Shown in pieces: positions 39,297 to 40,788 of a DNA stretch of 64,000 nucleotides. Source of the stretch: Paraburkholderia acidisoli (GTDB lineage Bacteria > Pseudomonadota > Gammaproteobacteria > Burkholderiales > Burkholderiaceae); contig NZ_CP046913.1 in NCBI RefSeq assembly GCF_009789675.1, forward strand, positions 496,001 to 560,000, read 5' to 3'. Below the pieces are notes generated by a model. The model worked only from the letters and a program-made list of their open reading frames with translations. It was not told the origin of the DNA and made no database searches. Within the stretch, counting starts at the first letter, position 1. Every line of letters begins with the position of its first letter. A program made the translations under genes and the position numbers.

Positions 39297-40370
39297 TTAG
39301 TTGCCGCTGCCGCGCGCGACGCGGCGCTGCTTGACGCTTTCGGCGAGACCTTCGAGCACGTTCACGCTCTCGTCCCAGCCGATGCACGCGTCGGTGATGC
39401 TCTGGCCGTAGGTGAGTTCGCAGCCTTCCTTCAGGTCCTGGCGGCCCGCCACGAGATGCGACTCCACCATCACGCCCACAATACGCTCGTCGCCCGCCGC
39501 GATCTGGCGGCCGATGTCGGCGCACACGGGAATCTGGTTCTCGTGCTTCTTCGAACTGTTCGCGTGGCTCGCGTCGATCATGAGGCGCGCGGCGAGACCC
39601 GCCTTGCCGATGTCGGCGCACGCGGCGTTCACGCTTTCGGCGTCGTAGTTCGGCGCCTTGCCGCCGCGCAGGATCACGTGGCAGTCCTCGTTACCGGCCG
39701 TGGAGACGATGGCCGAATGGCCGCCCTTGGTGACCGAGAGGAAATGGTGCGGCTGCGAGGCGGCCTTGATCGCGTCCACGGCGATCTTCACGTTGCCGTC
39801 CGTGCCGTTCTTGAAACCGACCGGGCACGACAGGCCCGAAGCCAGTTCGCGGTGCACCTGCGACTCGGTCGTGCGCGCACCGATCGCGCCCCACGAAACC
39901 AGATCGGCGATGTACTGCGGGCTGATCATGTCGAGGTATTCGGTGCCCGCGGGCAGACCCAGTTCGTTGATCGAGACGAGCAGTTCGCGCGCGGTGCGCA
40001 GGCCGTCGTTGATCTTGAAGCTGTTGTCCATGTACGGGTCGTTGATGAGCCCCTTCCAGCCCACGGTGGTGCGCGGCTTTTCGAAGTACACGCGCATCAC
40101 GATCTCGAGTTCGTTCTTGAAGCGCTTGCGTTGCTCGACGAGGCGATTCGCGTATTCGATGGCGGCCTTGGTGTCGTGAATCGAGCACGGCCCGACGATC
40201 ACGATCAGGCGGTCGTCCATGCCGTGCAGGATGCGGTGCATGGCGCGGCGCGACTCGAAGATCAGCGTGGAAGCGGCTTCCGAGCACGGGAATTCGCGGA
40301 TCAGGTGAGCGGGCGGCGTGAGTTCCTTGAGTTCGCGAATGCGGACATCGTCGGTGTTGTGCGGGGGCAT
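39297..40370 (-). CDS. aroG: 3-deoxy-7-phosphoheptulonate (DAHP) synthase
   Basis: DAHP synthase condenses phosphoenolpyruvate with erythrose 4-phosphate, the first committed step to Phe, Tyr, Trp and chorismate. The 357-residue product is a class I AroF/G/H-type enzyme: GPCSIHD for phosphate binding, KPRTTVGWKGLINDP, GAIGARTTESQVHRELASGLSCPVGFKNGTDG (read in blocks), and DASHANSSKKH with the metal-binding His. The ATG at 40370 is preceded by AGGAGAACAACC. A 270-nt leader carries an aromatic-rich leader peptide and an attenuator hairpin. Expression should therefore fall when aromatic aminoacyl-tRNAs are plentiful. Which amino acid also inhibits the enzyme allosterically cannot be read safely. 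Confidence 0.96.
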   Translation of the reverse strand: MPPHNTDDVRIRELKELTPPAHLIREFPCSEAASTLIFESRRAMHRILHGMDDRLIVIVGPCSIHDTKAAIEYANRLVEQRKRFKNELEIVMRVYFEKPRTTVGWKGLINDPYMDNSFKINDGLRTARELLVSINELGLPAGTEYLDMISPQYIADLVSWGAIGARTTESQVHRELASGLSCPVGFKNGTDGNVKIAVDAIKAASQPHHFLSVTKGGHSAIVSTAGNEDCHVILRGGKAPNYDAESVNAACADIGKAGLAARLMIDASHANSSKKHENQIPVCADIGRQIAAGDERIVGVMVESHLVAGRQDLKEGCELTYGQSITDACIGWDESVNVLEGLAESVKQRRVARGSGN

Positions 40371-40444
40371 GGTTGTTCTCCTGATCCGGTGCTTGGCGTG
40401 CGTTCGGTGTTGCGTTGGCTTGCGTCGCGATAAAACGTTGGGCG

Positions 40445-40477
40445 AAAAAAAACCGCCAGGCTGGGCTGGCGGTTTTT
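40445..40477 (-). terminator. Attenuator (leader terminator) of aroG
   Basis: On the minus strand CCGCCAG and CTGGCGG pair around a 6-nt loop (extended by A-T pairs) and are followed by eight U. It stands about 30 nt behind the leader-peptide stop and about 75 nt before the aroG start, so it would stop transcription before the gene. Its 5' arm CCGCCAGC (40465-40472) is perfectly complementary to GCTGGCGG inside the leader-peptide coding region (40519-40526), giving an 8-bp antiterminator that excludes the terminator. Confidence 0.85.
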
Positions 40478-40504
40478 CGTGTATTCGGGTTCCTGCGCGT
40501 ACTA

Positions 40505-40573
40505 TCAACCCTCTCGATCCGCCAGCGGTCTGAGATACCAAAAAAAGTAAAAATAAAACTGGCTGGCGAACAT
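40505..40573 (-). CDS. Aromatic-rich leader peptide of aroG
   Basis: A 22-codon ORF reads MFASQ, then FYFYFFWY (four Phe, three Tyr, one Trp in a row), then LRPLADREG and TGA. Such a run is the hallmark of amino-acid attenuation leaders (compare pheA and trp leaders). Here all three end products of the aromatic pathway are represented. Stalling in the aromatic run would leave the downstream GCTGGCGG segment free to form the antiterminator. Translation to the stop codon would cover it and let the terminator form. No good Shine-Dalgarno is visible before the ATG (CACACCGTC), which is the one weak point. Confidence 0.85.
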   Translation of the reverse strand: MFASQFYFYFFWYLRPLADREG

Positions 40574-40642
40574 GACGGTGTGCGTTGTTTGTGCGGTCGC
40601 TAGTGCGTTTGCGCTTGCGTACGTCGAAAAGGGTGATTGCCT

Positions 40643-40671
40643 TTATAACCCGGCACGCTTCACGCTGACAA
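40643..40671 (-). promoter_or_regulatory. Sigma-70 promoter of the aroG leader
   Basis: On the minus strand TTGTCA and TTATAA are separated by exactly 17 nt. Transcription would start near 40636, about 63 nt ahead of the leader-peptide ATG. This fits the attenuator model. Confidence 0.75.
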
Positions 40672-40788
40672 GCGTGGCGGCGTGAAAAAGCGGAACATCC
40701 GCGCAAATTCCGCAACTCATGCAAAAAAATAGCGCAACGGTGCGGGAATTCCGCATCGTCGCGCATCGGGGGCGGATCACCGCCGCAT

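Follow-up and report, generated by a model that had tools for sequence, protein, structure and literature searches.

What lies between the promoter of aroG and its start codon in Paraburkholderia acidisoli, and which amino acids does it read? The question was raised by a 64,000-nucleotide stretch of the genome (contig NZ_CP046913.1, positions 496,001 to 560,000; hereafter the window). For this stretch a preliminary description had proposed an attenuator in front of a DAHP synthase gene, with a leader peptide sensing Phe, Tyr and Trp. The tests it named included conservation of the aromatic run among relatives, compensatory changes in the two alternative stems, and folding with the leader masked. 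Our comparative and folding analyses indicate that transcription of aroG is very probably governed by ribosome-mediated attenuation, with charged tRNA-Phe and tRNA-Tyr as the main signals and tRNA-Trp as a probably weak one in this species.

Architecture of the aroG locus

The minus strand of the window carries, from 40671 to 39297, a promoter, a leader ORF, a terminator and aroG, in that order (Table 1). The parts named in the preliminary description proved to be placed correctly. The promoter with its 17-nt spacer lies where it had been put, with an 18-nt spacer to TATAAA fitting as well, and the 22-codon ORF with eight consecutive aromatic codons was confirmed to the base. The element GCTGGCGG inside the ORF was likewise at the right coordinates, as was the terminator, which has eight U and a 5′ arm complementary to this element.

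Table 1. Features of the aroG leader region in the window, with the related leaders of Aquitalea type (positions of the latter refer to their own loci).
Feature	Position	Strand	Remarks
Sigma-70-type promoter	40642..40671	-	-35 TTGTCA at 40671-40666; from sequence
Promoter -10, two options	TTATAA 40648-40643; TATAAA 40647-40642	-	17-nt and 18-nt spacer, respectively
Leader ORF, 22 codons + TGA, MFASQFYFYFFWYLRPLADREG	40505..40573	-	No Shine-Dalgarno-like motif before ATG
Control codons 6-13, F Y F Y F F W Y	40535..40558	-	Eight aromatic codons in an unbroken run
Segment 1, CGCCAGC (codons 2-4), optional, upstream	40562..40568	-	From sequence and free-leader fold
Putative local protector hairpin (UCUC ... 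CCG CUGG CGG ... GAGA)	40512..40535	-	Would sequester segment 2; support mixed
Segment 2, GCTGGCGG, antiterminator 5′ side, core GGCGG	40519..40526	-	From sequence; core conserved
Segment 3, AACCGCCAG, terminator 5′ arm, alternative partner of segment 2	40466..40474	-	From sequence and covariation
Segment 4, CTGGCGGTT, with U-run (8 U, 40452-40445), intrinsic terminator	40445..40459	-	From sequence, fold and covariation
Whole terminator, AACCGCCAG-CCCAGC-CTGGCGGTT and eight U	40474-40445	-	5′ arm pairs with segment 2
aroG Shine-Dalgarno, AGGAG	40378..40382	-	From sequence
aroG, 357-aa type I DAHP synthase, regulated gene	39297..40370, ATG at 40370	-	NCBIfam NF006723, above cut-off
Aquitalea-type leaders	L232:301-384, L234:302-385	+	Model R2
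Aquitalea-type leaders	L233, L240	-	Model R2

The AroG protein scored 605 bits against the NF006723 model (cut-off 568). Its closest solved relatives were E. coli Phe-sensitive DAHP synthase entries (522 bits), a similarity of the sequence as a whole and not of single feedback residues; other DAHP synthases reached at most 514 bits, and enzymes labelled as Tyr-sensitive or Tyr-inhibited 357–381 bits. The closest named loci were those of Paraburkholderia silviterrae and P. tropica (97% identity). The 7.9 Mb genome, in five contigs, encodes a second DAHP synthase on another contig, 63% identical, and the 450 bases upstream of it held neither an aromatic-rich leader ORF (best 3/8) nor a five-T run.

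A generic consensus scan of the window reported neither the promoter nor the terminator: the former was missed because the scan demands T at position 6 of the -10 box, and the latter because it wants the T-run 3′ of the stem, which here absorbs part of the U-run. Just upstream of the promoter, a terminator-like hairpin GCGGATGTTCCGC followed by TTTTT was seen at 40690-40702 of the minus strand, perhaps the end of an upstream transcript.

Conservation of the leader ORF

Among the 591 ATG ORFs of 10–60 aa in the window, the leader alone had at least six aromatic residues within eight codons. Applied to 394,268 bases from 66 related loci (5008 ORFs of 10–60 aa), the same search gave 84 matches; none lacked FYF, so all are presumably leaders and their nested starts. 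An aromatic-rich leader ORF preceded aroG in all 80 named loci, the best 80 of at least 591 from the scan, with the leaders of L073 and L082 recognised by eye. Conservation of the run, proposed as a test, was thus found in 80/80 loci, which represent Burkholderia, Paraburkholderia, Caballeronia, Trinickia, Mycetohabitans, Robbsia, Pararobbsia, Ralstonia, Cupriavidus, Pandoraea, Herbaspirillum, Duganella, Noviherbaspirillum, Collimonas, Herminiimonas and unplaced MAGs. In codons 6–11 of 73 aligned loci, 99 of the 140 cells differing from the majority base fell at third positions (table sum), as expected if the Phe and Tyr codons are translated.

Competing stems

The core GGCGG of segment 2 was present in 165/169 loci and the core CCGCC of segment 3 in 166/169; these counts and the swap test below exclude four of the 173 loci (L137, L154, L160, L188), in which the core pattern was unmatched. 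With a permissive finder, a hairpin followed by a T-run was detected in 173/173 loci, placed wrongly in L188.

Covariation was assessed on an alignment of 48 leaders (A2). In the terminator, 97.2% of cells were paired, and 19 cells were changed on both sides compared with a mean of 4.4 in shuffled alignments, a value reached in 0/500 shuffles. In the antiterminator, 92.0% of cells were paired (16–54% in slid registers) and 9 cells were changed on both sides compared with a shuffled mean of 4.0 (1/500); its covariation score was reached by 3/500 shuffles. Two other statistics were not clearly above the shuffles in this alignment, namely the number of pairs changed on both sides (terminator, 50/500; antiterminator, 186/500) and the number of pair types (67/500 and 61/500, respectively). 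Column 151 changes together with both of its partners, from U-A to C-G in the 2:3 stem and from A-U to G-C in the 3:4 stem. It is the triple change predicted by attenuation.

Since kindred rows inflate covariation figures, representatives were used for the swap test. In 32 of them, the 2:3 flanks paired better with their own partners than in all but 1e-4 of permutations. Segments 2, 3 and 4 therefore change together, the compensatory pattern that had been set as a test of the competing stems.

A conserved stretch around CCGAATTCCC was observed between the leader stop codon and the terminator in many loci (columns 139–155 of alignment A1); it may extend the antiterminator.

Segment 2 can also be occupied from two other sides. 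Codons 2–4 can pair with it in the window and many Burkholderiaceae, this segment 1 being complementary to segment 2 in the window species and weak or absent in some relatives. A protector-like hairpin occurs in many lineages: one arm, rich in pyrimidines, lies where the aromatic run ends, and the other, rich in purines, behind GGCGG. The 5′ arm comes after the aromatic run. Own protector arms paired better than swapped ones (0.013 of permutations; 21/32 rows above their mean). In folding energy, the hairpin gained nothing over shuffled sequence (median z 0.09; z < -1 in 27/139), and registers slid by -2 and -3 scored 0.256 and 0.230 in covariation versus 0.221 for the actual register. These mixed results suggest that a protector of some form likely exists. 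The purine-rich GAGAGGG after segment 2 was also considered as a hidden ribosome binding site and set aside, since it can pair with the pyrimidine-rich end of the run.

Predicted fold switch

Folding was performed on 80 leaders, extending an earlier test on 15; L073, in which the terminator pattern was unmatched, was omitted. When a ribosome masked the run and the RNA ended before the 3′ terminator arm, the antiterminator was predicted in 80/80 leaders. With the ribosome at the stop codon, the terminator was predicted in 72/80. On the full RNA, the terminator had the lowest energy in 68/80 leaders despite a stalled ribosome, so the switch would depend on co-transcriptional timing.

The position of the switch in the window was located by scanning the ribosomal A-site along the leader. 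The antiterminator probability was 1.00 at codons 2–10, 0.44–0.56 at codons 11–13, 0.02 at codon 14 and 0.00 from codon 15, with 0.02 in the RNA without a ribosome. The masked-leader fold called for in the preliminary description thus gave the expected switch, situated at the end of the run. Across the 32 representatives, the mean antiterminator probability was 0.72 at aromatic codons, 0.41 in free RNA (versus 0.02 for the window) and 0.24 at the stop codon. Among the 13 leaders listed, five (L052, L060, L121, L162, L084) had values of 0.57–1.00 at the stop codon, where the ribosome is already past segment 2, and L131, L172 and L151 had low or patchy antiterminator values. These leaders fit attenuation less well.

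From these parts, the following course of transcription, translation, ribosome stalling and termination is inferred for the living cell. RNA polymerase would start at the promoter and a ribosome would translate the leader. When Phe- or Tyr-tRNA is scarce, the ribosome would stall in the aromatic run and hold open both the upstream and the local protector pairings of segment 2, so that segment 2 (GCTGGCGG) could pair with segment 3 (CCGCCAGC) while segment 4 is still to be transcribed. With 2:3 paired, the terminator could not form and aroG would be transcribed. When aromatic amino acids are plentiful, the ribosome would pass the aromatic codons and cover segment 2, segment 3 would pair with segment 4, and transcription would stop after the U-run. 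Without translation, segment 2 would be kept in the protector pairing, leading to termination. The attenuator reading of the preliminary description is supported by the conserved run, the covarying competing stems and the fold switch.

Predicted amino acid specificity of the leader

The preliminary description had the leader sensing all three aromatic amino acids. In a stronger form, starvation for Phe, Tyr or Trp would each relieve termination about equally. The composition of the window run, with four Phe, three Tyr and one Trp, agrees with such a three-way sensor. So does part of a wider survey of 173 loci chosen by AroG similarity or by a covariance model (R1, below), in which the window locus occurs twice (WIN, L114) and L205, L206, L208 and later loci are omitted. 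Leaders contained Phe in 173/173, Tyr in 169/173 and Trp in 100/173 cases, counts that lean towards aromatic residues because in each locus the short ORF richest in them was chosen as the leader; for L186, a GTG frame VPQSSFFSRFYPTPQAVGRR fitted better and was used in the recount. All three amino acids were encoded by 100 of the 173 leaders, and the other 73 had a run without Trp. In many Cupriavidus and Pandoraea loci, a Ser, Ala or Gly codon stands in place of the Trp codon.

In the predicted folds, a stall at Trp12 in the window gave an antiterminator probability of 0.50, at the edge of the switching window. Elsewhere, a Trp stall gave 0.97–1.00 in L019, L162 and L084, as an equal sensor would require, but at most 0.08 in L010, L043, L052 and L131. 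Over the 32 representatives, the mean was 0.58 for Trp stalls compared with 0.74 for Phe and 0.75 for Tyr. An equal response to all three amino acids is therefore unlikely. The conserved signals are Phe and Tyr, and Trp varies by lineage. The original claim that all three are sensed is supported only in part, with a stall at Trp12 of the window predicted to free the antiterminator about half of the time. A fitting name for the element is Phe/Tyr attenuator with an optional Trp input.

Alternatives to attenuation

The hairpin could instead merely terminate a short constitutive transcript, such as an sRNA or a small protein gene, with read-through into aroG not regulated by translation. The terminator alone is stable and the product of attenuation would itself be a short RNA; moreover, the Sinorhizobium rnTrpL RNA and peTrpL peptide can act in trans according to the accessible part of PMC7298713. 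However, this explanation accounts neither for aromatic codons ahead of an aromatic-synthesis gene nor for a conserved segment 2 inside the ORF that covaries with segment 3, and we consider it very unlikely.

Control at the level of translation, or a leader peptide acting in trans, instead of transcription termination, is extremely improbable: the peptide after the aromatic run is conserved across genera, but L008, L018 and L034 carry a frame shift just after the run and keep the segment 2 bases while losing the peptide, so the conservation is at the RNA level and a functional peptide is ruled out as its source, and the aroG start codon, which has its own Shine-Dalgarno sequence, lies 74 nt beyond the U-run. 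In a further locus, L047, the frame is shifted and the ORF continues through the terminator; here too the RNA segment is kept and the peptide is altered.

Promoters and translation start

The promoter pattern TTG[CT]CA-N14-22-TATAAA was found in 45 of the 50 nearest loci, with a spacer of 17 or 18 in every match. A Shine-Dalgarno-like motif preceded the leader start in 8/173 loci; with a start lacking such a motif, translation efficiency is uncertain.

Of 72 unique leaders outside the family of the window (f1) and its sister family (f164), 43 have a -10-like TANNNT box that ends 6–9 nt upstream of the start codon, other four-base bins containing 0–5; in the f1 and f164 set the same bin held 1/88 and other bins 0–14. 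The box is often TGTGCTANNNT (loci within L121–L209). This suggests that leader mRNAs in those lineages, outside the two families, are leaderless. The window leader is not leaderless: its -10 box ends 68 nt before the ATG, and 34–69 nt in its kin.

Leaderless mRNAs, immediately preceded by a TA-rich motif, are made by Burkholderia cenocepacia, according to the accessible part of PMC4603805. In S. meliloti, the rnTrpL RNA begins at the ATG of trpL, a leader ORF that likewise precedes an aromatic-pathway gene (PMC7298713, in part), and the same start is predicted for the 43/72 leaders above. The S. meliloti attenuator differs in that trpL precedes trpE(G) and encodes a 14-residue peptide (PMC7298713, same part).

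Distribution of the element

The covariance model R1 was searched against 399 Burkholderiales genomes and all matches were opened. It matched 95 genomes, once each; 92 of the matches lay directly before aroG, the exceptions being L205, L206 and L208. A second model, R2, built on 48 diverse leaders, matched 113 of the 399 genomes, and all 113 matches were opened at least in part. Of these, 107 lay directly before aroG, four (the Aquitalea type) before another gene, and two (L208 and L236) look like chance. No ORF above 3/8 aromatics was seen in L254, L260 and L261, which are R2 matches before aroG.

In a sample of the class, R2 matched 8/276 genomes. Five of these are outside Burkholderiales, one of which (L237) looks like chance. 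By these matches, two GTDB families beyond the order carry the element (f12 and f17); the AroG of the f12 genome G147 is 100% identical to one named Stenotrophomonas.

Sixteen genomes without an R1 match were inspected. A DAHP synthase match was present in 14 of them, including L209, which has a leader missed by R1; the other 13, four of which belong to the window's family and have small genomes, had no leader before the DAHP synthase. The absence of the leader in some genomes is real. In the four small genomes (L214–L217), aroG has no leader and the sequence upstream resembles, by eye, the end of a tldD-type gene.

Within the window genome, R1 at E values up to 10 gave one strong match, that of the window itself. 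The next best full-length R1 match (L142, E 0.286), a terminator that follows a tRNA-like 3′ end, was dismissed as a chance match. L205, L208, L235, L236 and L237, matched by R1 or R2, had no aroG or no leader and were likewise treated as chance. L206 first looked like chance, but a genuine leader is present there, in front of a gene other than aroG.

A related module before another gene

Four genomes of one genus, called Aquitalea from a 92% identical protein, gave R2 matches with E values of 1e-4 to 8e-4, comprising a leader (MITFSAVFNAYFYWYRSSRRLQGASLD in one), GGCGG and a terminator (Table 1). The leader precedes a gene whose product, 206 or 204 aa long, has no known function. Relatives of this protein occur in nine database clusters, the named ones being Aquitalea, Chromobacterium and Paludibacterium. 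No such leader was found at aroG in the same four genomes. Where visible, the gene is followed by a DUF4870-type ORF and then a GTPase-like ORF.

A broader view of the element can be proposed tentatively, at somewhat less than even confidence. The leader would be an ancestral, portable Phe/Tyr-sensing module, shared by Burkholderiales and some of the Xanthomonadaceae. Outside f1 and f164, the ORF of most leaders would start at the first base of the mRNA and the ribosome could load as the RNA emerges. The Aquitalea module would control the gene of unknown function, aroG there being without it, and would thereby tie that gene to the physiology of aromatic amino acids.

Comparison with known systems

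Attenuators that read amino acids of the regulated pathway are well established. The pheL leader has a Phe-rich ORF, alternative antiterminator and terminator structures and an aromatic pathway gene downstream, and single leaders can read several pathway products, as in the ilv leader (Ile/Val/Leu codons) and the thr leader (Thr/Ile codons). Vitreschak and colleagues reportedly surveyed proteobacterial attenuators in 2004.

According to Rfam, no family reached its gathering threshold in the window or six relatives. The family Phe_leader (RF01859, the enterobacterial pheA leader pheL) aligned over the whole leader region with 18.5 bits, far below its cut-off of 55 (E 0.98). It resembles the window element in its Phe-rich short ORF, its antiterminator and terminator, and the aromatic gene downstream; it differs in that pheL precedes pheA, whereas the window leader precedes aroG and has mixed Phe/Tyr(/Trp) codons. 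The multivalent ilv and thr attenuators likewise read several end products and differ in pathway and lineage, the present element being aromatic and placed before a DAHP synthase gene.

Attenuation at the same enzymatic step has been predicted in other lineages. Attenuators were predicted before the DAHP synthase genes aroF and aroH of Shewanella (PMC2659441), and attenuation or termination before aroAI-alpha-Y > tyrA of Vibrio (PMC1173090, Table 7), as given in the accessible parts of both papers; the likeness drawn here is one of description. The same parts describe no leader peptide of the window type and no Burkholderiales aroG. DAHP and COG0722 do not occur in the accessible main text of a premature-terminator survey (PMC2965389), nor do aroG, DAHP or heptonate in that of a Bordetella sRNA paper (PMC3110155), and a regulon survey (PMC5343134) deals, in its accessible part, with transcription factors. 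Among the full-text matches listed, within the accessible text, no aroG leader is described in Burkholderiales; an earlier prediction in subscription-only surveys or in Merino's attenuator web list is possible. The mechanism is classical, and the element is a new, widespread member of its kind.

Biological significance

DAHP synthase is the entry to the pathway of all aromatic amino acids, and the literature found, so far as its text was accessible, gives no account of leader control of this enzyme in Burkholderia, Cupriavidus, Ralstonia and their kin. The Aquitalea case, if true, is a clue to the role of a gene of unknown function. In the leaderless form, attenuation by ribosomes that load independently of a Shine-Dalgarno sequence could be studied. 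The element itself, if the attenuator reading is true, offers a ready-made switch for engineering Cupriavidus or Paraburkholderia. On the same condition, one RNA element would explain how flux is matched to the Phe and Tyr supply in many members of a large order that includes soil, plant-associated and clinical bacteria.
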